A DNA stretch of 64,000 nt, taken from contig NZ_CP009498.1 in the NCBI RefSeq assembly GCF_001027545.1, positions 434,001-498,000 of the forward strand, in the 5' to 3' direction. The translations under genes and the position numbers were made by a program. The notes beneath the pieces were generated by a model. It was not told the origin of the DNA. It searched no databases and worked only from the letters and a program-made list of their open reading frames with translations. This stretch comes from Endomicrobium proavitum. Lineage in GTDB: Bacteria > Elusimicrobiota > Endomicrobiia > Endomicrobiales > Endomicrobiaceae. This document shows positions 23,504 through 43,791 of the stretch, in pieces (positions within the stretch are counted from its first letter, which is position 1; each line of letters starts with the position of its first letter).

Positions 23504-24454
23504 ATGAAGAAATTGTTATTGGCTTTGGTTATTTCAATATCCTGTTTTTGCGCGGCGTATGCGCAGGTAAATAAAGGCGGCGTTTTTATAGCCAACGTTT
23601 TAACCGTGCCGTCTTTTGCAGACGCGCAAACTTCCGCGTTAAACAATTTGCATCAGTATAAAGAAGCTAATATTTCCGCCGAAGTTTCTCTCGGATCTTT
23701 CAAATACAAAAAAGAAAACGCCATAGACGCCGATTTTGACGGCAAAGAAAGAAATCTTCTTGTAGGTCTTGATATGTATAAAACAGACAGCGTTACGCTG
23801 GGAATGCTTGTAAAATATTCCGTTACGGAGCTTGACGAGTTTGGCGATTATTCAAAAATAACTGATATCGGCGTAGGCGGTTATCTTGGGTATTTTTTTG
23901 AAAAATTAGACGTAAAAGCCGTTTTAAGAACCGGTTATCAAACGTATTCCAACGAAAAAAATACAAGCGTTATAAAAACTTCAAAAGGCGAATTTACGGG
24001 AAACAGTTTTATGGCCAACGTTGAAGCAAAATATAAAATACCTGTTAACGAAGTTTTTGTGTTAAAACCGTTTGTTGCTTTTGACGCCGGCGCTAATTTT
24101 TATAAAGGCGTATCGCTTGACGGGTTCTCGCTAAAAGGCGGGTCTTACTTTAAAAGCGCAGTTGAAGGCGGGGCAGGCATTGAAGCCCAATTGTCCGGAG
24201 TATTTCTTTATTTGGATATTGGAGTAGGGTATTTGCTTAGCGGAAATAAAAACACAATAACCGCCGATGTTTTAGGCGTTGAAACCGAAATAGAAGGCAC
24301 AAAACAAAGCAGAGTTGCGGCAAAAACCCGCATAGGCGCGGAAGTTGATCTTAACTCGGACGTAGCGCTGTTTTTTAACGCGGGATACAGCGAATCGTCA
24401 AGCTTTAGAAACGTATTTGCCGCTATAGGCGTAAATTGCAAAATAGGCGAATAA
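23504..24454 (+). CDS. Outer-membrane beta-barrel protein, function unknown
   Basis: A 316-residue secreted protein with a clear signal peptide (MKKLLLALVISISCFCAAYA, cleavage after AYAQ). The mature part alternates short amphipathic strands rich in G, Y, F and K, such as LSGVFLYLDIGVGYLLSG and VAAKTRIGAEVDLNSD. It ends near VFAAIGVNCKIGE, which fits an OmpA- or autotransporter-like barrel of 8-12 strands. I do not recognise a specific family. It stands alone between the etf terminator and the promoter of the glutamate synthase operon. Confidence 0.65.
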   Translation: MKKLLLALVISISCFCAAYAQVNKGGVFIANVLTVPSFADAQTSALNNLHQYKEANISAEVSLGSFKYKKENAIDADFDGKERNLLVGLDMYKTDSVTLGMLVKYSVTELDEFGDYSKITDIGVGGYLGYFFEKLDVKAVLRTGYQTYSNEKNTSVIKTSKGEFTGNSFMANVEAKYKIPVNEVFVLKPFVAFDAGANFYKGVSLDGFSLKGGSYFKSAVEGGAGIEAQLSGVFLYLDIGVGYLLSGNKNTITADVLGVETEIEGTKQSRVAAKTRIGAEVDLNSDVALFFNAGYSESSSFRNVFAAIGVNCKIGE

Positions 24455-24459
24455 AACTC

Positions 24460-24488
24460 TTGATTTTTTCACTGTTTTTATGTAAACT
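24460..24488 (+). promoter_or_regulatory. Probable promoter of the glutamate synthase operon
   Basis: TTGATT (24460-24465) and TAAACT (24483-24488) are separated by 17 bases, predicting a transcript start near 24495. That would produce a leader of about 130 bases before the first gene. The -10 is imperfect, so confidence is moderate. Confidence 0.5.
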
Positions 24489-24493
24489 TTTGT

Positions 24494-24590
24494 GACTCCA
24501 AAAACGAAATTCTGCAGCAATAAAATCAACAGGGCAACGGAGTCCTAAATTAACCTCTTAAAAGGGGCGTTATTTTAGGGCATTTTTTTA
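24494..24590 (+). promoter_or_regulatory. Transcription attenuator with ANTAR-type hexaloop hairpin ahead of glutamate synthase
   Basis: Two mutually exclusive structures are visible. AGGGC (24531-24535) and GTCCT (24542-24546) pair around a six-base loop AACGGA, which has A at loop position 1 and G at position 4, the known recognition signature of ANTAR proteins. TCCTAAA (24543-24549) instead pairs with TTTAGGG-type sequence (24574-24580), with inner pairs TAAC/GTTA and CTCT/GGGG, followed by CATTTTTTTA, an intrinsic terminator. The shared bases 24543-24546 mean the first hairpin blocks the second. A third option, GACTCC (24494-24499) with GGAGTC (24539-24544), would undo the hexaloop hairpin. 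I did not find the usual first hexaloop hairpin (P1) of the two-hairpin ANTAR target. Confidence 0.65.
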
Positions 24591-24623
24591 TACATACTTT
24601 TCTATTATACATGTGGAGGAACA

Positions 24624-25715
24624 ATGTTACGAGAAGGCGACGTTCGCATACCTTCCGGCTGTGCTATAAGCGGCATTATAGATAAAACCGGAAAAAGATT
24701 CAGCGGCGAAGACATTATAAAATCTATCGCTCTCATGCACGACCGCTCAAACGGTCTTGGCGGCGGATTTGCGGCTTACGGCATTTATCCGGAATACAAA
24801 GATTTTTACGCGCTGCACATATTTTTTGACACTTTAACCGCAAAGGTTAACGCGGAAGAATTTCTTGAAAAACATTTTGATATTGAAAGCGCCGGCGATA
24901 TTCCTACCACTCCCATTGACGGCATTACAAACAAACCTTTAATATGGCGTTATTTCGTTCGTCCGAGAGTTCACATGATGCAGGACGAATTTATAGACGA
25001 AGACGAATTTACCGCAAGATGCGCAGTTAAAATAAACACGGAATTTACGGGCGCATACGTTTTTTCAAGCGGTAAAAATATGGGAGCTTTTAAAGGCGTC
25101 GGTTATCCCGAAGATATCGGCAAATTTTATATGCTTGAAACTTATAAAGCCCATTTCTGGACGGCGCACGGAAGATTTCCTACAAACACGCCGGGCTGGT
25201 GGGGCGGAGCGCATCCGTTTACTTTGCTTAATTGGTCTGTGGTTCACAACGGAGAAATTTCTTCTTACGACGCAAACAGACGCTTTGTGGAAATGTTCGG
25301 TTACAAATGCACGCTTCAAACCGATACCGAAGTTATAACTTATCTTTTTGATCTTCTCGTCAGAAAACATAAACTTTCATTAGAAAAAGCCATTCAAATA
25401 GTATGCGCTCCTTTCTGGACGGACATTGAAAGAGAAAGCGCCGAATTAAAAAAAGATCTTAAAGCTTTAAGAGCCGTTTATTCAAGCGCTCTTATCAATG
25501 GACCTTTTTCAATAATTCTCGGAAGCGAAAAAGGAATGATAGCTTTAAACGACAGAATAAAACTTCGTTCAATGGTTGCCGCCGAGAAAGGCAGCAAAAC
25601 TTTTGTTGCAAGCGAAGAAAGCGCAATAAGAATAATTTGTCCTAACCCCGATAAAGTATGGTCTCCAAGAGGCGGCGAGCCTGTTGTTGCCTTTCTTGAA
25701 GGAGCAAGCAAATGA
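24624..25715 (+). CDS. Glutamate synthase amidotransferase subunit (class II GATase domain as separate protein)
   Basis: A 363-residue protein corresponding to the glutaminase domain of glutamate synthase. The probable nucleophile is Cys13 in IPSGCAISGII, which would become N-terminal after removal of a 12-residue leader. HGRFPTNTPGWWGGAHPFTL near residue 172 and VVHNGEISSYDANRR near 196 are the class II glutaminase blocks. It splits glutamine and feeds ammonia to the FMN subunit encoded next, whose ATG overlaps this stop (ATGA). It matches the archaeal-type split GltB1. GTGGAGG precedes the start. Confidence 0.9.
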   Translation: MLREGDVRIPSGCAISGIIDKTGKRFSGEDIIKSIALMHDRSNGLGGGFAAYGIYPEYKDFYALHIFFDTLTAKVNAEEFLEKHFDIESAGDIPTTPIDGITNKPLIWRYFVRPRVHMMQDEFIDEDEFTARCAVKINTEFTGAYVFSSGKNMGAFKGVGYPEDIGKFYMLETYKAHFWTAHGRFPTNTPGWWGGAHPFTLLNWSVVHNGEISSYDANRRFVEMFGYKCTLQTDTEVITYLFDLLVRKHKLSLEKAIQIVCAPFWTDIERESAELKKDLKALRAVYSSALINGPFSIILGSEKGMIALNDRIKLRSMVAAEKGSKTFVASEESAIRIICPNPDKVWSPRGGEPVVAFLEGASK

Positions 25716-27217
25716 GTTTAAATTTTATTACTCCGTTATTTGAAGTTGTCCGCGATGATAAAAAATGCATACGTTGTAAAGTTTGCGTTAAGCAGTGCTC
25801 CAATCAGGTTCACTCTTACGACGAGCAGGACGATATTGTTCTTGCCGACGACATTAAATGCGTAAACTGCCACAGATGCGTTTTGCTGTGCCCCACAAGA
25901 GCGCTGCAAATAAAAAAATATCCTTTGGAATTTAGAGAAAACGCAAACTGGACGGGTCAGGCGATAAACGAAATTTACAAACAGGCCGACACGGGCGGAG
26001 TTTTGCTTACCAGTATGGGAAATCCCAAACCGTTTCCTATTTACTGGGATAAAATGCTTCTTAATGCAAGTCAGGTTACAAATCCTTCCATAGATCCTCT
26101 TCGCGAGCCTATGGAAACAAAAACCATAATAGGCAGAAAGCCCGACAAACTTGAGTTTGATAAAAAGGGAAAGCTTACAACCGAAATGCCTCCGCAGCTG
26201 GAGCTTAACGTGCCTATAATGTTTTCCGCAATGAGCTACGGCTCTATTTCAAGAAACGCGCACGAGTCTTTGGCAAGAGCCGCTACGGAGCTTGGCACGC
26301 TTTACAACACGGGCGAGGGCGGGCTCAACAGAGATTTTTATAAATACGGAGCAAACACAATAGTTCAGGTTGCTTCGGGAAGGTTCGGCGTAAGTCCGGA
26401 ATATTTAAATGCGGGCGCGGCTATAGAAATTAAAATAGGTCAGGGCGCAAAACCCGGAATAGGCGGACATTTGCCCGGCAGAAAAGTTGACGAAGACGTT
26501 TCGGCTACAAGAATGATTCCCGTAGGTTCAGACGCTATTTCGCCTGCTCCTCACCACGATATTTATTCCATTGAAGATTTGAGACAGCTTATATATTCGC
26601 TTAAAGAAGCCAGCGGTTACAAGAAACCGGTTTTTGTAAAAATAGCCGCAGTTCACAACGCGGCGGCAATTGCTTCAGGAGTTGTCAGAGCCGGCGCAGA
26701 CGCCGTTATTGTTGACGGGTTCAGGGGCGGCACGGGCGCAGCGCCTTTAAGAGTAAGAGACAACGTAGGTATTCCCATTGAACTTGCTCTTGCGGCGATA
26801 GATCAAAGGCTTAGAGAAGAAGGCATAAGAAATCAAGCGTCGCTTGTAGTTGCGGGTTCTATAAGAAACAGCGCCGATATTGTAAAAGCAATAGCGTTAG
26901 GCGCGGATGCGGTTTATATAGGTTCTGCGGCGTTAATAGCTTTGGGTTGTCATATGTGTCATTCCTGCTCCACGGGAAAATGCAACTGGGGAATAGCAAC
27001 GCAGGAACCGGAACTTGTTAAAAGATTAAATCCGGACATTATGTATAAAAGACTCGTAAACCTTGTGTCGGCGTGGAATCACGAAATTCAAGAATTAATC
27101 GGCGGCATGGGTATAAACGCAATAGATAGTTTACGCGGCAACAGGCTTATGCTTCGCGGAGTAGGTTTGAATGAGAAAGAGCTTGAAATACTCGGCATTA
27201 AGCACGCGGGGGAATAA
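25712..27217 (+). CDS. Glutamate synthase FMN/synthase domain with N-terminal ferredoxin domain
   Basis: A 501-residue protein. Residues about 15-68 are a two-cluster ferredoxin (CIRCKVCVKQC and CVNCHRCVLLCP). The rest is the glutamate synthase central TIM barrel: MFSAMSYGSISRNAHES near 171, GEGGLNRDFYKY near 202, GAKPGIGGHLPGRKV near 245, DGFRGGTGAAPL near 343 and the Fe-S cysteines in CHMCHSCSTGKCNWG near 415. It combines 2-oxoglutarate and ammonia into glutamate using ferredoxin-level electrons. This is the GltB2 part of the split enzyme. Confidence 0.94.
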   Translation: MSLNFITPLFEVVRDDKKCIRCKVCVKQCSNQVHSYDEQDDIVLADDIKCVNCHRCVLLCPTRALQIKKYPLEFRENANWTGQAINEIYKQADTGGVLLTSMGNPKPFPIYWDKMLLNASQVTNPSIDPLREPMETKTIIGRKPDKLEFDKKGKLTTEMPPQLELNVPIMFSAMSYGSISRNAHESLARAATELGTLYNTGEGGLNRDFYKYGANTIVQVASGRFGVSPEYLNAGAAIEIKIGQGAKPGIGGHLPGRKVDEDVSATRMIPVGSDAISPAPHHDIYSIEDLRQLIYSLKEASGYKKPVFVKIAAVHNAAAIASGVVRAGADAVIVDGFRGGTGAAPLRVRDNVGIPIELALAAIDQRLREEGIRNQASLVVAGSIRNSADIVKAIALGADAVYIGSAALIALGCHMCHSCSTGKCNWGIATQEPELVKRLNPDIMYKRLVNLVSAWNHEIQELIGGMGINAIDSLRGNRLMLRGVGLNEKELEILGIKHAGE

Positions 27218-27222
27218 AATAT

Positions 27223-27684
27223 ATGAAAAGAGTTTACGCGTTTGAAAACAGATGTTTGGGCTGCGGACTTTGCGAGGTTTATTGTAAAACCGCGCATTCA
27301 AAATCTAAAGATATTATTAAAGCAAACAGAAATGAAAATATAACTTCGGCAATAGTTATAGAAGAAATTCTTCAGCCTAAAGCCGTAGCGTATTTTGCTT
27401 TGCAATGCCGTCATTGCGACGACGCAAAATGCGTTAAAGCCTGCATAGCGGGCGCAATGTATAAAGATGAAAACGGCGTTGTCAGAAACGATAAAGACAA
27501 ATGCGTCGCTTGTTTGTCGTGCCTTTTGGTTTGTCCGTTCGGCGCGGTCAAAAAGACTGAAGAGGGAAAAACCGTTTCCAAATGCGACCTTTGCATAGAT
27601 TTCGGCGCCCCTGCCTGCGTGGAAAACTGCCCTAACGGAGCTCTTAAACTTTTAGACGATAAAGAAGCGGAGGCGTTAAAATGA
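27223..27684 (+). CDS. Polyferredoxin, four [4Fe-4S] sites (HycB/NapG-like)
   Basis: A 153-residue iron-sulfur protein with four cysteine sets: CLGCGLCEVYC near residue 10, CRHCDDAKCVKAC near 63, CVACLSCLLVCP near 93 and CDLCIDFGAPACVENCP near 117. It probably wires the NAD(P)H oxidoreductase encoded next to the synthase subunit. It is five bases from the synthase gene and overlaps the oxidoreductase gene by four, so it belongs to the same operon. Confidence 0.88.
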   Translation: MKRVYAFENRCLGCGLCEVYCKTAHSKSKDIIKANRNENITSAIVIEEILQPKAVAYFALQCRHCDDAKCVKACIAGAMYKDENGVVRNDKDKCVACLSCLLVCPFGAVKKTEEGKTVSKCDLCIDFGAPACVENCPNGALKLLDDKEAEALK

Positions 27685-28937
27685 AATACGTAATCATCGG
27701 CAACAGCGCCGCCGGCGTTAACGCTGCAGACGCTATAAGAAAAAACGACAAAAAAGGTCAAATAACAATAATTTCAAACGAAGAGTTTCCGGCATACGGC
27801 AGACCGCTTATTTCTTATTATTTAAGCGGAAAAGTTAAACCGGAAAATATGTCTTACCGCGACGCAAGTTTTTATAAGTCAAGAAAAATTGACGTTTTGC
27901 TTAACACTGAAGTTACAAAGATAGATTCAAAAAATAAAAAAGTTATTACTTCCGGCGGCAAGAAAATAGATTATGACAAACTGCTTATAGCTACGGGAAG
28001 CGTTCCGTTTGTTCCGCCTACAAACGGTTTGGCAAATCAGGAAAACGTTTTTACGTTTTTAACTTACGGCGAATCAAGAAGGCTTAAAACAGCCGTAAAT
28101 AAAAACTCAAAAGTTGTTATTGTCGGCGCGGGTCTTATAGGTTTGAAGGCCGCCGAAGGTTTGTTCGGGCAGGTTGCAAAAATTACCGTTTTAGATTTGG
28201 CGGACAGAGTTATGGCGTCGGTTTTAGATAAACCGGCGGCAAAATTAATTCAAAGCCATATAGAACAAAACGATATAGATTTTAAACTCGGCGTAAGCGT
28301 TGCCGAAGTTGTCGGCGAGAAAAAAGTTTCAAAAGTTGTTCTTTCAAACGGAGAGTCGCTTCTTTGCGATATTTTAATAGTTGCCGTCGGAGTTCGCCCT
28401 AACGTTGCTCTTGCAAAGGAATCCGGTATTAAAGTTAACAGAGCTATAATTGTTGACGAATATATGCAAACTTCACAGAAAGATATTTACGCCGCGGGCG
28501 ACTGCGTTGAATCTTGGGATTGTCTTGCAAACGCTTGCAAAGTTTTGGCTTTGTGGCCTAACGCGTCTAATCAGGGCGAAACGGCGGGTTTTAATATGTC
28601 CGTCGGAAATAAACAAAAAGCGCCCGTTTCGTTTGCGATGAACGCAATCTCATTTTTCGGCTTGCAGTTAATATCCGCCGGAATTATAGGCGAAGCCAAT
28701 AAAAATTCAATTTTTGACAGAGCCGCAAATAAACTTAGAAGATTAAATATTGTTGACGACAAACTTTTGGGATACGTTTTAATTAACGACACCCAGAGAG
28801 CCGGAATTTATACCGCATTAATCAACGATAAAACAAAACTATCGTCTCTTGAATACGATATAACAAAAAAAGATATAGGCTTAAGCGTATATCCGAAAGC
28901 GTCAAGAGTTTGCAAAATATGGGGTCAAACAAAATGA
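27681..28937 (+). CDS. FAD-dependent pyridine nucleotide-disulfide-type oxidoreductase of glutamate synthase
   Basis: A 418-residue flavoprotein of the NADH:rubredoxin/nitrite reductase-like class. The FAD-binding VIIGNSAAGVNAADAIRK is at the N-terminus, the NAD-binding VVIVGAGLIGLKAAEGLF near residue 148 and the FAD-closing motif DIYAAGDCVE near 268. There is no redox-active CxxxxC pair. In this operon it most likely supplies NAD(P)H electrons to the split glutamate synthase in place of the classical GltD. It overlaps both neighbours by four bases (ATGA). Confidence 0.88.
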   Translation: MKYVIIGNSAAGVNAADAIRKNDKKGQITIISNEEFPAYGRPLISYYLSGKVKPENMSYRDASFYKSRKIDVLLNTEVTKIDSKNKKVITSGGKKIDYDKLLIATGSVPFVPPTNGLANQENVFTFLTYGESRRLKTAVNKNSKVVIVGAGLIGLKAAEGLFGQVAKITVLDLADRVMASVLDKPAAKLIQSHIEQNDIDFKLGVSVAEVVGEKKVSKVVLSNGESLLCDILIVAVGVRPNVALAKESGIKVNRAIIVDEYMQTSQKDIYAAGDCVESWDCLANACKVLALWPNASNQGETAGFNMSVGNKQKAPVSFAMNAISFFGLQLISAGIIGEANKNSIFDRAANKLRRLNIVDDKLLGYVLINDTQRAGIYTALINDKTKLSSLEYDITKKDIGLSVYPKASRVCKIWGQTK

Positions 28938-29668
28938 AAACAATTAACGCCGAAGGCTTATATTATCGTCAGTTAAACGAGCAAATAGACAAAGTTGTTA
29001 AGACCGATAAAAACATAATTTTAAACAACGTTTTCGGTCAAAGATATATCGGCAGAGCTCTTCCTGAAAAAGTTAAAATTAAAATTAACGGTTTTCCGGG
29101 AAACGATATGGCGGCTTACATGGACGGCGCCGAACTTGAAGTTTTCGGCAACGGTCAAGACGCCGTGGGAAATACAATGAACGGCGGGCGCATAATAGTT
29201 CACGGAAATTGCGGCGACACCACGGGCTATGCAATGCGCGGCGGCGAAATCTATGTTGAAGGTTACGTGGGTTACAGAGTCGGCATTCATATGAAAGAGT
29301 ATAAAGAAATAAAACCGGTAATAGTTATAGGCAAAAAAGCCGGCGACTTTTTGGGCGAATATATGGCAGGCGGAGCAATTATAGTTTTGGGCGTAGGACT
29401 TGATAAAAATGAAGATTTAATAGGCAAATACTGCGGCACGGGTATTCACGGCGGAGCTATTTTTCTTAACGGTTCTCCTGATAAATATAAATTAGGCAAA
29501 GAAGCCGCTAAAACGGAGCTTACCGATGCCGATAAAGCGTTGCTGAAAAAACATATTGAAGCTTACGGAAAATACTTTAAAAAAGACGTCAGCAAAATAA
29601 AAGCGGAAAAATTTTCAAAATACGCTCCGCTAAGCGCCAATCCGTACAGCAAGATGTACTCTAAATAA
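28934..29668 (+). CDS. Glutamate synthase GXGXG (alpha-domain 3) subunit
   Basis: The 244-residue protein is the beta-helix GXGXG domain of glutamate synthase as a separate chain (archaeal GltB3). Repeated glycine turns include GNDMAAYMDGAELEVFGNGQ, GNTMNGGRIIVHGN, GYAMRGGEIYVEG and GEYMAGGAIIVLG. I start at the ATG at 28934, which overlaps the previous stop as ATGA, in line with all other joints of this operon; an in-frame ATG at 28910 lies inside the upstream gene. In whole GltB this domain is structural and connects the glutaminase and synthase sites. Confidence 0.92.
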   Translation: MKTINAEGLYYRQLNEQIDKVVKTDKNIILNNVFGQRYIGRALPEKVKIKINGFPGNDMAAYMDGAELEVFGNGQDAVGNTMNGGRIIVHGNCGDTTGYAMRGGEIYVEGYVGYRVGIHMKEYKEIKPVIVIGKKAGDFLGEYMAGGAIIVLGVGLDKNEDLIGKYCGTGIHGGAIFLNGSPDKYKLGKEAAKTELTDADKALLKKHIEAYGKYFKKDVSKIKAEKFSKYAPLSANPYSKMYSK

Positions 29669-29882: not shown

Positions 29883-29914
29883 AAACCCTGAAAATGTTTG
29901 TTTTCAGGGTTTTT
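29883..29914 (+). terminator. Intrinsic terminator (attenuator) directly ahead of glnA
   Basis: CCCTGAAAA (29886-29894) pairs perfectly with TTTTCAGGG (29901-29909) around TGTTTG and is followed by TTTTT, ending only nine bases before the glnA ribosome site. Any promoter for glnA must lie upstream, since no room is left after it, so this terminator should control glnA. A hexaloop hairpin TATAA-AATGTT-TTATA with loop A1/G4 occurs at 29827-29842, but it coincides with -10-like TATAAA sequences and may be promoter DNA instead of an RNA element. Confidence 0.8.
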
Positions 29915-29935
29915 CTCTATAAAAAGGAGATTAAA

Positions 29936-31264
29936 ATGAATTACACAAAAGAACAGATTATTCAGATTGTAAAAGAAAACAATGTAAAGTTTATACGCTT
30001 ACAGTTTACCGACATTTTGGGAAATTTAAAAAATGTTGCAATAACCGCAAGCCAGCTTGAAAAGGCTTTGGATAATAAGTGCATGTTTGACGGTTCTTCA
30101 ATAGAAGGTTTTGTGCGCATTGAAGAAAGCGACATGTATCTTCGTCCGGATTTAGATACGTTTGTAATTTTTCCGTGGAGACCGCAGGACGGAAAGGTTG
30201 CAAGATTTATTTGCGACGTTTATACTCCCGACGGAAAACCTTTTGAAGGCTGTCCCAGATACGCTTTGAAAAAAGTTTTAAAAGAGGCCGCGGATTTAGG
30301 GTATTCTTTCAACGTAGGTCCGGAATGCGAATTTTTCTTGTTTGTTACCGACGAGAAAGGTAAACCCACAACCATAACTCAAGACGACGCCGGATATTTT
30401 GATTTGGCGCCTATAGATTTGGGCGAAAATGCCAGACGGGATATTTGTTTAACTTTAGAAAATATGGGTTTTGAAATAGAAGCGTCTCACCATGAAGTTG
30501 CAAGAGGACAGCACGAGATAGATTTTAAATATGCGGACGCTTTAAAAGCCGCCGACAATATTAACACGTTTAAAATGGTTGTAAAAATCGTCGCGCAAAA
30601 ACACGGTCTTCACGCAACGTTTATGCCTAAACCTATAGCAGGAATAAACGGTTCGGGAATGCATACGAACATGTCGCTGTTTAAAGACGGAAAAAACGCG
30701 TTTTACGATGAAAAAGACGCGCTGCAGCTTTCTCAAACCGCTTACAATTATATCGGCGGGCTTATAAAAAATATGCGCTCTATGGCGGCGGTTACAAACC
30801 CGCTTGTAAACTCTTACAAAAGGCTTGTGCCGGGCTATGAAGCGCCTGTAAACATTGCGTGGTCTTGCCATAACAGAAGTCCGCTTATAAGAATTCCCGC
30901 GGCGCGCGGCGCCAGCACAAGAGTTGAACTGCGTAGCCCCGATCCGTCGTCAAATCCTTATTTGGTTTTAGCGGCGTGTTTGGCGGCAGGTCTTGACGGG
31001 GTAAAAAATAAAATAAAACCTCCAAAACCTGTGGAGCAGAATGTTTTCAAAATGACAAAAGAAGAAAAAGCTAAAGCCGGCGTAGGCGATTTGCCGTCGG
31101 AATTAAACGAAGCTTTAACGGAATTGCAAAACAGCGCGCTTATGAAAAACACGTTGGGCGAACATATTTTTGAAAATTATTTGGAAGCAAAACGCGAAGA
31201 GTGGTTTGAATATATAACTAAAGTTCATCAGTGGGAGTTAGACGAGTATCTTTCTGTCTATTAA
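29936..31264 (+). CDS. glnA: Glutamine synthetase type I (alpha class)
   Basis: A 442-residue [19 protein letters not shown] near residue 49, GPECEFFLF near 132, the ATP-binding [15 protein letters not shown] near 240 and [10 protein letters not shown] near 318 are intact. Its length and the lack of an adenylylation NLYDLPPE segment place it with the Bacillus-type GSI-alpha enzymes, which are controlled by feedback and transcription, not by adenylylation. The ATG at 29936 follows AAGGAG. It makes the glutamine used by the split glutamate synthase upstream and by carA, purF and pyrG downstream. Control is probably at the terminator just ahead. Confidence 0.97.
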
Positions 31265-31341: not shown

Positions 31342-31926
31342 ATGGATAAAGCTAAAATACTTATAGCTTCTTCAGATAAGTCTGTTTTAAGCTTGCTGAA
31401 AGTTCAGCTTGAAACGTCTTTATATAATGTGTTAGACGGACACTCTTCGGGAAATGAAGTTATAAGAAAAGTTAACACTCTGTTTCCCGATTTGGTTATA
31501 TCCGACTATAACTTGTCTGACATGACGGGTTTGGATCTTGCAAAATCCGTGGAAGATTCGCGCACGTGCCCGATAATAGTTTTGGCAAATGCCGCGCAAA
31601 GCGAATATGTTGAAGAGCTAAAGCGCGATTCGCTTGATATATTTTGCATAACAAAACCGGTGAATGCCGCCGTGTTAAATCATATGGTTGCGCTTGTATT
31701 AAGACTTTCAAGAAAAATGCAGGAATACGAAAGTCAGGTGGACAGTTTAAAAAACCAGCTTGAAGACAGAAAAATTATAGACCGCGCAAAAGGCATTCTC
31801 ATGAGTAAGTTTAACATGAGCGAAGACGCCGCCTACAAAGAGCTGCGCAAAAAAGCCATGAACGCCTCAAAAACGCTCGGACAGATAGCAAAAACAATAG
31901 TAGATATGTTTGCCGCAATGGACTAA
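31342..31926 (+). CDS. ANTAR-domain RNA-binding antitermination regulator with degenerate receiver
   Basis: A 194-residue protein. Residues 4-118 form a receiver fold with the phospho-acceptor Asp55 (LVISDYNLSD) and Lys105 (ITKPVN). The usual acidic pair at the first strand is replaced by serines (IASSDKS, only Asp12 remains) and the switch Thr/Ser position is alanine (VLANAA). A linking helix leads to an ANTAR domain at about 134-190 (RKIIDRAKGILMSKF, AYKELRKKAMNASKTL). ANTAR proteins bind hexaloop RNA hairpins and prevent termination, often for nitrogen genes. It follows glnA by 77 bases with no kinase nearby. The start at 31342 has AAAGG seven bases ahead. Targets are inferred to be the two attenuators upstream. 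Confidence 0.92.
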   Translation: MDKAKILIASSDKSVLSLLKVQLETSLYNVLDGHSSGNEVIRKVNTLFPDLVISDYNLSDMTGLDLAKSVEDSRTCPIIVLANAAQSEYVEELKRDSLDIFCITKPVNAAVLNHMVALVLRLSRKMQEYESQVDSLKNQLEDRKIIDRAKGILMSKFNMSEDAAYKELRKKAMNASKTLGQIAKTIVDMFAAMD

Positions 31927-39717: not shown

Positions 39718-42700
39718 ATGAAAAAGTTTTTAAATTATATATCGGATGTTATTGCGGGAAAAAGCAAAGCCTTAAAAGTTGTTGCTTTTTCCTTATTTCT
39801 TTTAGTTTCAACTTTGTTTTTGGCGGCGCCAAAAACCTACGCCCAAATATATTTAGATGATATGATAGCGCAAAATTATTCATATGTAGTAGGTAGCAGC
39901 GGAATAGCTGCTCTACCTTGGTGGCATAATTTTATAGGAGCGCTTAATGTAAATAGTATAGGCGGTTACGTTCAATATTATAATTTGATAAATAAAAACA
40001 TAAGTTTATTAAGCAATACGCTAACGAGCGGAGATTTCGGAACCGCGGCGCAAGGCGGCGGGTTGTTTGTAGGCGGATCGGTATCCGCCGGAGAAGATCA
40101 TTCTCTTCCTCCTGCTATGTGGGAGCAATTGGTCAGCGGCGGTGAAGTGGTGGTAAACATAATATCGTCACCGTCAATAATAAACTTTACAAGCAATACG
40201 CTAACAAGCGGGGATTTCGGAACTGCAGCGCAAGGCGGCGGGTTGTTTGTAGGCGGCGCGGTGTCTGCCGGTATCAATTATACCAGCCTTGTCAGCTCTT
40301 TCGGTTTTGCCAGCAACGGTATGGCAACGGTAAACATTACATTGTCAACAGTAAACTTTACAGGTAATACGCTAACAGCAGGGGTTAATGATCAAGGAAA
40401 TCCCCCTAATGGAGCTGCAGCGCAAGGCGGCGGGTTATTTGTAGGCGGCGCGGTGTCTGCCGGCAACTATTCTATTGAGGCAAACAGTTCCGCCAGCAGC
40501 TCTACGGCGGTGGTAAACTTTACATCGTCAACAGTAAACTTTACAGGTAATACGCTAACAGCGGGGAATGCTAATAACCCGTGGAATCCCGGCGAGAATA
40601 GAAGAGCAGCGCAAGGCGGAGGATTGTTCGTAGGCGGCGCGGTATCTGCCGGCTTCGGCGCCGATGCTATGGATGCGGTGAATTTTAGCAGCAGCGGTAC
40701 GGCGATAGCAGCTTTCACAGATTCAATAATTAATGTAGGCAACAACTCAGCAATGCAAGGCGGGGGATTATTTGTTGGCGGTTCCGTGGCAGGAGGAAGC
40801 TCAAGGGAGGGGCGTAATTACGCAACCAATGGTATTGCGCAATTAACTTTTACAGGCTCAACGGTAACAATATACGGTAACAATGCAGGCGAAGGCGGAG
40901 GAATATACATAACAGGGAATTCAGGTGATTATGGAGCTAATTATGCCGCTGACGGATGGGCAAGTATAATATTTGAAAACTCTGCAGTATCAATATCAAA
41001 CAACACAGCGCAATATGGAGCGGCAATATTTGCCGTAAACGGAGCAAGCATAACATTTGATAATAACACAAGCGTAGAATTTTTATGGAACAATTCTCTC
41101 TACGGCAATGGCGTAGTGGATTTCCAGAACGCGCCGAATTTCGGTTTGCAAAATGCAAATATAACCAAAGCAATAGGCAACCAATCCAACAACGGCGGAT
41201 TTTTATATTTAGTAAATCAAGGGACATGGACGTTTACAAATGCAGAAATGTCATCAAACACAGCGCGGGGCGGTCAAGGCGGAGCTCTATATTTAAGTAA
41301 TACAAACGTAGTATTTAACGAGGAAAGCACACTTAGTTATAATACGGCAACCTCTGTAGGCGGAGCGGTATTTGCCAACAACACAATATTAACAATAAAG
41401 AATGCAGTAATGACGTTTATGAATAATAAATCATTGTTAGGCGGAGCAGTTTACGCAAGCAACGGCTCAAGTATAACATTGTCGGGAAGAGGAAGTTTTA
41501 TAGGCAATGAGGCGAATGCCTCCTCGGGAGCAGCAATCTACATAACAGGCGGCAGCACAGTAACAGTAGAAGCCGCAAGCGGCGATATACTATTTACGGG
41601 CAATAAAGCCGCAGGAACGCCAAACGATATATACGCAGACAACAACACGCAGCTAAACTTAATAACCTCCGGAACAAACACAATAAGCTTAGCCGGAGGA
41701 ATATTAAGCAACGCAGCGGGCACAGGAATAGTTGTCAATAAAACCGGAGCAGGAACATTATTACTTGGAGGCGACAACGTAGTTTACGGCGACTTCATAG
41801 CCACGGAAGGAAAAGTAGGGCTGATAAGTAACGCAAGCTACACCGGCAATAGTTTAATATTGACAGGCGCGGAATTTGACATGACCGATGATGATGCAAG
41901 CCGCGTAAATATAGCAAGCGTAACAACGTTTACAAGTATAACAAAAGCAACAATGGGAATATTCGCCAACGGGGAAAACGACACTGTGTACGCAGGCAGC
42001 GCAACAATAGACGGAGCGTTGTATATAAAAACCGGTTTAGGCGATTACGGCACACAAAAAACATACGATTTAATAATATCAACAACGTTTGGAATAAACC
42101 AAATATACGGCGTATTTGCGTCAAGCGCAATAAGCAACACAACATTACAATATACGTTAGATTACAGCAATCCGGGAATAGTAAGATTAACTGTAGCGGG
42201 GGGAGCGGCACAAAGTAACTTTGCGGCAATAAAGCAATTAACGCCTAACCAAAGAGAAGTGGCAAAAACGTGGGACAGCTTGTCTGTAATACTGTCAAGC
42301 GGGGACTTGTTGAATGTAATGAACGGAGCATGGAATAACACAACAACGGACGAAGAAAAGAAAGGAGCGTTAAACATAGCGTCAGGCTATTTTTTAAGCA
42401 ACGTAATAAAGTCGGCAGCGTTAGACAGCGACAATAACGAGTTGTATAACAGAATAAAAAGCAATGCGCAAAGCGAGAATTCCAAAGCGGCAATATGGAC
42501 GCAGGCAACAGGGGCAAGCGCAAAGTTTGGCAGAGATAAAAACAGTTTAGAAGAATACACAGATGGCAGGTATGGAGCAACGGCAGGCATTGACGTTCAT
42601 CTTGGAGCAGGCAATGTAATGTTGGGAATATACGCAGATTATAAAGACCATTCAATAAGCGAAAAAAACAGTAAAGCAACGCTCAACAAAATAGGCGGCG

Positions 42701-43791
42701 GGTTATACGGCGGATATGTATCGGATGAATGGGAAATTAAAACAATAATAAGCGCAAGCAAAGATAAGTATGAAACGTCAAGATATATAGAATTGAGCAA
42801 ATATTTGCCTTTATACGCGGATAGAATAGCAAATGCAAGTTATGAAGGCATGACAATAGGGGCAGACATAGAAGGAGCATTAAAAATAAAAATAAGCAAT
42901 AACACAACCTTCAAACCATATATAGGCGTGGAAGTAAAGAACGCGCAGTATGATAGCTTCAAAGAAACGGGCGCAAGCGGACTAAACTTAAATGTAGCGG
43001 CGGGCAATTATTTAAGAAGCGTCGCAAGATTAGGCTCCGGAGTAAGTTATGACAACAAAACGTGGGCAGGATATATAGATTTTGAAGGGAAGTTTTTGCT
43101 TATCGGAGCAATGACGGAAATAAAAAGCATGTTTGAAAATACTGAATTAGAGTTTACTAGCCGCGGATACAGCGAAGGAGTAGTTGCCTGCGGAGTTGGA
43201 ATAGGCGGGTCTGTTAGAATAACAGAATGGTTGAAACTCTTTGTAAACGGCAATTTTTACAGGTCTAATAAGTTTACAAATTTATACGGCAACGCAGGGC
43301 TGAACTTTAGCTTTGGCAGTGTAACAAACAAGGGTTCAAATCAACCAAACTCTAAACAAGAACCTGCGCCAACGCCTGCACCTGAGCGCAGTTATAATGA
43401 TGACGATTTATCCGATGAGTTACGAAACGCCCTTAGCGGTGGTGCAGCCGGCAATGTTTCAACACAGCCAACCCCTAAACCTGCGCCAACGCCTGCACCT
43501 GAGCGCAGTTATAATGATGACGATTTATCCGATGAGTTACGAAACGCCCTTAGCGGTGGTGCAACCGGCAATGTTTCAACACAGCCAACCCCTAAACCTG
43601 CGCCAACGCCTGCACCTGAACGCAGTTATAATGATGACGATTTGTCTGATGAGTTACGAAACGCTCTTAGCGGCGGTGCAACCGGCAATGTTTCAACACA
43701 GCCAACCCCTAAACCTGCGCCAACGCCTACGCCTGAACGCAGTTATAACGAGGATGATTTGTCTGATGATTTGCGAAATGCTCTTAGGTGA
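39718..43791 (+). CDS. Giant Pmp-like autotransporter with C-terminal 39-residue repeats
   Basis: A 1357-residue surface protein. An extended signal peptide ends near KTYAQ (about residue 42). Residues about 50-800 form a beta-helix passenger rich in the chlamydial Pmp-type motifs GGGLFVGG, GGAVYA and FTGN/FTSN, including about five imperfect repeats of 60-65 residues. A passenger-barrel junction and autotransporter beta-barrel occupy about 915-1202 (AAIWTQATGASAKFG to AGLNFSFGSV). After the barrel come four Pro-rich/acidic repeats of 39 residues (about 1216-1357) with core SYNDDDLSDELRNALSGG. Barrels normally end the protein, so this tail is unusual. Codons such as ACA, ATA and GCA dominate, unlike the neighbours. 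Role: presumably adhesion or surface variation. Confidence 0.85.
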   Translation: MKKFLNYISDVIAGKSKALKVVAFSLFLLVSTLFLAAPKTYAQIYLDDMIAQNYSYVVGSSGIAALPWWHNFIGALNVNSIGGYVQYYNLINKNISLLSNTLTSGDFGTAAQGGGLFVGGSVSAGEDHSLPPAMWEQLVSGGEVVVNIISSPSIINFTSNTLTSGDFGTAAQGGGLFVGGAVSAGINYTSLVSSFGFASNGMATVNITLSTVNFTGNTLTAGVNDQGNPPNGAAAQGGGLFVGGAVSAGNYSIEANSSASSSTAVVNFTSSTVNFTGNTLTAGNANNPWNPGENRRAAQGGGLFVGGAVSAGFGADAMDAVNFSSSGTAIAAFTDSIINVGNNSAMQGGGLFVGGSVAGGSSREGRNYATNGIAQLTFTGSTVTIYGNNAGEGGGIYITGNSGDYGANYAADGWASIIFENSAVSISNNTAQYGAAIFAVNGASITFDNNTSVEFLWNNSLYGNGVVDFQNAPNFGLQNANITKAIGNQSNNGGFLYLVNQGTWTFTNAEMSSNTARGGQGGALYLSNTNVVFNEESTLSYNTATSVGGAVFANNTILTIKNAVMTFMNNKSLLGGAVYASNGSSITLSGRGSFIGNEANASSGAAIYITGGSTVTVEAASGDILFTGNKAAGTPNDIYADNNTQLNLITSGTNTISLAGGILSNAAGTGIVVNKTGAGTLLLGGDNVVYGDFIATEGKVGLISNASYTGNSLILTGAEFDMTDDDASRVNIASVTTFTSITKATMGIFANGENDTVYAGSATIDGALYIKTGLGDYGTQKTYDLIISTTFGINQIYGVFASSAISNTTLQYTLDYSNPGIVRLTVAGGAAQSNFAAIKQLTPNQREVAKTWDSLSVILSSGDLLNVMNGAWNNTTTDEEKKGALNIASGYFLSNVIKSAALDSDNNELYNRIKSNAQSENSKAAIWTQATGASAKFGRDKNSLEEYTDGRYGATAGIDVHLGAGNVMLGIYADYKDHSISEKNSKATLNKIGGGLYGGYVSDEWEIKTIISASKDKYETSRYIELSKYLPLYADRIANASYEGMTIGADIEGALKIKISNNTTFKPYIGVEVKNAQYDSFKETGASGLNLNVAAGNYLRSVARLGSGVSYDNKTWAGYIDFEGKFLLIGAMTEIKSMFENTELEFTSRGYSEGVVACGVGIGGSVRITEWLKLFVNGNFYRSNKFTNLYGNAGLNFSFGSVTNKGSNQPNSKQEPAPTPAPERSYNDDDLSDELRNALSGGAAGNVSTQPTPKPAPTPAPERSYNDDDLSDELRNALSGGATGNVSTQPTPKPAPTPAPERSYNDDDLSDELRNALSGGATGNVSTQPTPKPAPTPTPERSYNEDDLSDDLRNALR
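43363..43791 (+). repeat. Four in-frame 117-bp repeats at the end of autotransporter 1
   Basis: Copies begin at 43363, 43480, 43597 and 43714 with an exact 117-base (39-codon) period; the last stops after 78 bases at the stop codon. Copies 1 and 2 differ by very few bases, which points to recent slippage or unequal recombination. Encoded core: PAPTPAPERSYNDDDLSDEL. Confidence 0.95.

Follow-up and report, generated by a model that had tools for sequence, protein, structure and literature searches.

In the EutV-type ANTAR system, antitermination in the eut leaders obligatorily requires a first hairpin (P1) and its spacing to a second one (P2), the P1–P2 linker being 5–12 nt, and P1 is seen in the current model as the recruitment site (PMC3369931, PMC8934654). 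Under the accepted model, the ANTAR protein loads on P1 and passes to P2, and lone hexaloops are expected only in the absence of a time limit set by a moving polymerase (PMC3369931, PMC8934654). Because EutV requires P1 and its spacing, a lone hexaloop might not act fast enough there. For EutX and for mRNAs of mycobacteria, single-hexaloop ANTAR sites have been put forward (PMC8934654), and ANTAR targets have been predicted at glutamate synthase in Desulfotomaculum reducens and at nitrogenase genes in Pelobacter carbinolicus (PMC3369931). An earlier report of single-hexaloop ANTAR attenuators was not found in the open-licence literature.

Here, we analyzed a window of 64,000 nt (the whole stretch of DNA under study) from the genome of Endomicrobium proavitum (1,588,979 bp, a single contig), which contains a split glutamate synthase (glt) operon followed by glnA and an ANTAR protein gene (Table 1). 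Based on its structure, conservation, and genomic company, the leader of the glt operon is very likely an ANTAR-type antiterminator leader with one hexaloop.

Table 1 Features of the glt leader and the glt/gln gene cluster (positions counted from the first nucleotide of the window).
Feature	Position	Strand	Remarks
Predicted promoter, TTGATT-17-TAAACT with TG before the -10	24460–24488	+	8/12 hexamer matches plus extended -10; TTGATT at 24460, TAAACT at 24483–24488; predicted +1 at A24495 (or G24494); prediction only
Proposed anti-antiterminator arm, GACTCC	24494–24499	+	pairs with GGAGTC 24539–24544; marginal energy
Antiterminator hairpin P2, AGGGC-AACGGA-GTCCT	24531–24546	+	5' arm 24531–24535, loop 24536–24541 (A1 = 24536, G4 = 24539), 3' arm 24542–24546; closing C-G
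Intrinsic terminator, base arm common with P2	24542–24589	+	stem 24542–24581 (G24542–A24549 paired with U24574–C24581); T7 24583–24589
Split glutamate synthase, glutamine amidotransferase subunit	24624–25715	+	PF00310
Split glutamate synthase, FMN/FeS core subunit	25712–27217	+	PF01645 (1e-142)
4Fe-4S subunit of the glt operon	27223–27684	+	PF13247
Pyridine nucleotide-disulphide oxidoreductase subunit	27681–28937	+	PF07992
GXGXG subunit of glutamate synthase	28934–29668	+	PF01493
glnA, type I glutamine synthetase	29936–31264	+	PF00120
ANTAR protein, degenerate receiver and ANTAR domain; presumed antiterminator	31342–31926	+	PF03861

An earlier note on this DNA had described a hexaloop hairpin with A1 and G4, which is present in the sequence, and a terminator at 24543–24580 that shares the 3' arm of this hairpin; the sharing holds, with each of the five P2 3' arm bases also used by the terminator stem, and the stem itself is slightly longer than described. 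The fold of 24494–24590 has an energy of -20.3 kcal/mol, compared to -14.3 ± 2.8 kcal/mol in shuffled sequences (z = -2.2). A loose scan for A1/G4 hexaloops overlapping a terminator returned seven matches in the window versus 2–4 per 64 kb in Markov controls, and among these seven only the glt leader joins five shared pairs to a terminator of -17 kcal/mol. With Rfam models, the window yielded only tRNAs at the gathering score, and relaxed thresholds gave nothing plausible in the glt leader.

To compare the leader among relatives, nine sequences were aligned (E. proavitum and eight relatives), all located before glt orthologues. In P2, the closing C-G, A1, and G4 are the invariant columns, and no others are. 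P2 is 97.8% paired with three of its five pairs changed on both sides, and the terminator is 93% paired with five of its eight pairs changed on both sides; none of the slid-pairing controls comes near either value. One leader is an exception in having a tetraloop (G008). The two structures are mutually exclusive, yet both covary, and since the P2 5' arm is dispensable for the terminator, its covariation argues that this arm is under selection. Orthologous leaders had been chosen beforehand as the place where loss of A1, G4, or the terminator overlap should be sought, and all three are kept in the glt relatives.

Two covariance models were used to find further modules: R1, built from the glt leaders, and R2, a wider model of 37 modules that was built because R1 missed modules in the E. 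proavitum genome. R1 recovered the E. proavitum glt leader, which is one of its training members, at 5e-8 and matched similar leaders in relatives. In E. proavitum, R2 matched the glt leader (E = 2e-4), two modules in series before a gene encoding an amtB-PII fusion of 559 aa (E = 3e-4 and 0.007; L115:3962–4098, G000:C1:279962–280097), and modules before glnN (type III glutamine synthetase; E = 0.07) and amtB2 (second ammonium transporter; E = 1.1), with target genes identified by Pfam. By E-value, the matches at glnN and amtB2 are weak; position, promoter-like sequence, hexaloop, and terminator favour them. Another weak R2 match, at 488141, was dropped as it lacked a hairpin/terminator module. 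No module was seen at nitrogenase genes among the inspected own-genome matches, and a search of this genome with a P2-core pattern gave no more matches than its reversed control. The glnA gene of E. proavitum has no ANTAR module, and several relatives have one at this gene. A strong 13-bp terminator-like hairpin with a T run and without an ANTAR hexaloop lies just upstream of glnA (29883–29912; 29883–29920 in the window with the T run), and E. proavitum glnA may be attenuated differently.

In some 30 genomes, the two models found about 85 non-redundant modules. A1, G4, the closing C-G, and loop A2 each occur in 85/85 modules; the counts for A1 and G4 are partly made by the method, because the scan that picked the R2 training modules required hairpin pairing and A1/G4, and the closing C-G and A2 were not demanded by that scan. 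R1, being trained on glt leaders, biases its conservation counts in the same direction. For the most part, the modules precede nitrogen genes or ANTAR genes; in relatives, the genes concerned include glt, glnA, glnN, amt, purF, and gdh as well as genes for a PotD-like binding protein, porin-like proteins, and an N-acetyl sugar amidotransferase. In relatives, amt and glnA genes repeatedly have two or three modules in a row ahead of them. Some relatives (L193, L183, L173) carry a module before diaminopimelate dehydrogenase and epimerase genes, which would bring genes of the cell wall and the lysine pathway under nitrogen control. Two further sequence features were observed. A P2 with an A.C mismatch beside the closing pair (TGGAC-AAAGAA-GCCCA) is repeated across genes in genera g7 and g11 (L098, L096, L106, L198), perhaps as a deliberate weakening of the hairpin. 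A weak unpaired motif resembling AACAACUUAAUA occurs 6–22 nt before P2 in relatives (e.g., L098, L099, L163), with TTAATA preceding P2 in 19 of 73 modules, against 6 expected and at most 15 in 500 shuffles; the motif may serve in recognition or belong to the start region.

These data bear on whether the hairpin and T run simply end transcription of the upstream outer-membrane-protein gene (23504–24454) in a constitutive manner, with a hexaloop that arose by chance. The distance of 90 nt from the end of this gene and the commonness of intrinsic terminators suit such a reading; however, a predicted promoter intervenes between the gene and the hairpin, the covarying 5' arm is superfluous for termination, and A1, G4, and the closing pair are invariant. 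In addition, the same module stands ahead of unrelated nitrogen genes in relatives, right after near-perfect promoters, and is rare in genomes without an ANTAR gene (see below). We therefore regard a constitutive terminator as extremely improbable and treat the glt leader as an ANTAR-type attenuator.

The next question concerns P1. No A1/G4 hexaloop, even with a 3-bp stem, was found in the 45 nt upstream of P2 in the E. proavitum glt leader, in line with the one-hairpin variant proposed before, and an upstream P1 hexaloop (at least 3 bp, within 45 nt) is absent in 84 of the 85 modules, the single case comparing with 1.5 expected from shuffled sequence. Classical ANTAR targets do have a P1, as do more distant relatives in the phylum, and the glt leader could be a classical dual-hexaloop target in which this hairpin was overlooked. 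Yet the same scan detected tandem hexaloops in several leaders of those more distant members (L027, L029; by eye L028), where the two adjoin each other at glt in G044 and G055 (in G054 as judged by eye) and also at the G043 ANTAR gene, and still found P1 at chance level in the modules. Furthermore, several leaders have only 3–16 nt ahead of P2; the amtB-PII leader, for example, begins with AUAUUAAUAAUAAA and contains no G before P2. An overlooked P1 is thus very unlikely. Promoter placement was also informative, all transcription start sites being predictions: 38 of 84 modules have a promoter score of at least 11.5 (0.2 expected), 30 of these 38 have a predicted start 12–30 nt before P2 (0.1 expected), and the others are mostly second members of series. 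Many modules lie 12–23 nt downstream of a predicted start at a near-consensus promoter. Judged from these sequences, modules of the order Endomicrobiales lack P1 as a rule, and the glt leader is no local oddity in this respect. The glt leader is classified here as a single-hexaloop variant and not as a canonical dual-hexaloop target, because P1, a defining feature of the latter, was searched for and was absent.

It had also been suggested that GACTCC at the 5' end of the transcript is a built-in anti-antiterminator that pairs with GGAGTC and disrupts the hexaloop. The six pairs do exist, and with a start at G24494 constrained folding gave -7.0 kcal/mol for this pairing versus -5.8 kcal/mol for P2, an advantage of 1.2 kcal/mol that would apply before the terminator is complete. 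With the predicted start at A24495, the GACTCC pairing falls to -3.4 kcal/mol and P2 wins by 2.4 kcal/mol. The element is absent from the other glt leaders compared, and many orthologous and paralogous modules, with starts 12–23 nt before P2, leave no room for anything like it. The pairing is possible, but as a mechanism it is not supported, as it depends on the start base and is not conserved; we consider this role unlikely, although GACTCC may tune the glt leader alone. As a reason for the missing P1, it was rejected because P1 absence is general in the order.

The candidate regulator is encoded in the same cluster. A match to PF03861 (2e-19; 69.5 bits versus a curated cut-off of 27.3) and a match to the receiver domain confirmed the ANTAR gene that had been noted downstream of glnA, and it encodes the sole ANTAR domain in the E. 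proavitum genome. Eight of 11 EutV RNA-contact residues are identical in this protein (R142, K143, K149, E160, Y164, R168, M172, N173), and the remaining three are substituted (K147 to R, R175 to S, R177 to T). The residue set that serves as the criterion for two-component phosphorylation (acidic pair, Asp, Thr/Ser, Lys) is incomplete in the ANTAR proteins of the family: the acidic pair is lost in 12/12 and the Thr in nearly all, and Asp54 and the Lys are mostly kept. By these residues, the family's receiver is an AmiR-like pseudo-receiver. Because the receivers are degenerate, control by phosphorylation is unlikely, and the AmiR-like type makes a partner protein or ligand likelier than a kinase. 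We infer that the receiver responds to a protein partner and not to phosphorylation; a PII protein is the natural guess, since two PII domains occur in the regulon. Order-level relatives with single-hexaloop modules have different, longer ANTAR-protein N-termini (in G043, where this was tested, a GAF domain), so that having one hairpin does not depend on having a pseudo-receiver. Elsewhere in the window, 39718–43791 encodes a large autotransporter-like protein whose C terminus has near-identical repeats (PTPAPERSYNDDDLSDELRNALSGG).

To relate modules to regulators, the presence of both was compared among genomes. In the family of E. proavitum, modules at E ≤ 0.01 are present in 25/26 genomes with an ANTAR gene versus 4/51 without one (Fisher p-value of 5e-15, counting related genomes that are not independent, as 42 of the 51 ANTAR-less genomes belong to the single genus g8). 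In this endosymbiont-like genus, one of 42 genomes has a module at that threshold. G091 of this genus keeps a module before amtB (L180:1501–1551), with no ANTAR gene detected; the module is either a relic, or the ANTAR gene lies in a gap. The inspected glt leaders of g8 members and of G005, which keep glt and have no ANTAR gene, have lost the module. Modules without a detected ANTAR gene were found in G046, three incomplete g10 genomes, and G091, and the reverse case is G030; three of the four family exceptions are incomplete genomes from a genus that otherwise has the ANTAR gene. A module also precedes the ANTAR gene in genus g10 and in G043, and in many genomes across families this gene sits in the gln/glt cluster, a few kilobases from glt. 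Given that binding of the ANTAR protein to P2 is predicted from sequence, another RNA-binding protein might bind the hairpin, the link to ANTAR being coincidental. This is exceedingly unlikely in view of the co-occurrence and gene positions described above, the conserved EutV RNA contacts, and the A1/G4 hexaloop over a terminator, which is an ANTAR signature.

Our proposal is that the E. proavitum glt leader is a one-hexaloop ANTAR attenuator. By default, the strong terminator would form and transcription would halt before the glt operon. Under nitrogen shortage, the ANTAR protein, presumably as a dimer, would capture the lone P2 as it leaves RNA polymerase, thereby tying up the base arm of the terminator and allowing the polymerase to read through into the glt genes. 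The same protein would run a small regulon comprising the glt operon, amtB-PII, amtB2-glnK, and glnN. We hold this explanation as a whole, including ANTAR-driven read-through into glt and the nitrogen regulon, to be highly probable, and the earlier note is supported on the ANTAR-type leader, the hexaloop, its terminator overlap, the ANTAR-gene link, the nitrogen role, and the lack of P1. A broader statement has about an even chance of being correct: that in Endomicrobiales a single hexaloop on a terminator suffices and P1 is dispensable, with an unphosphorylated pseudo-receiver ANTAR protein that reads nitrogen (e.g., via PII) and switches an ammonium-assimilation regulon.

Dozens of natural one-hexaloop terminator leaders would contradict the P1-first model or indicate that the kinetic problem is solved in another way; at about 70–100 nt, these leaders are small enough for direct tests. 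Because two-hairpin searches miss this class, ANTAR regulons are probably undercounted. The results also suggest a nitrogen regulon for Elusimicrobiota, of which the regulator and most of the switches are missing in an endosymbiont-like lineage.

Compared to known systems, the amidase operon of Pseudomonas aeruginosa is similar in that AmiR, a pseudo-receiver plus ANTAR protein, controls termination; however, its amiE target is one of the dual-hairpin seed sequences (PMC3369931), E. proavitum has one hairpin, and no AmiC-like partner adjoins its ANTAR gene. The predicted targets in D. reducens and P. carbinolicus share ANTAR leaders at nitrogen genes and a regulon of several operons, but they were found with a two-hairpin model, and one-hairpin modules fall outside that definition (PMC3369931). 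The EutX and mycobacterial sites agree in that a single hexaloop is the least that is needed for binding, although they were proposed where polymerase sets no time limit, whereas here the hexaloop is on an intrinsic terminator. Relative to the EutV-type system, E. proavitum differs in lacking P1, in having a degenerate instead of a phosphorylated receiver, and in its targets, which are ammonium assimilation and transport genes. Nevertheless, it shares with the eut leaders of Enterococcus faecalis the A1/G4 hexaloop, the constrained closing pair, and a P2 3' arm that is part of the terminator, and the RNA contacts of the EutV-type ANTAR protein are conserved in its E. proavitum counterpart.
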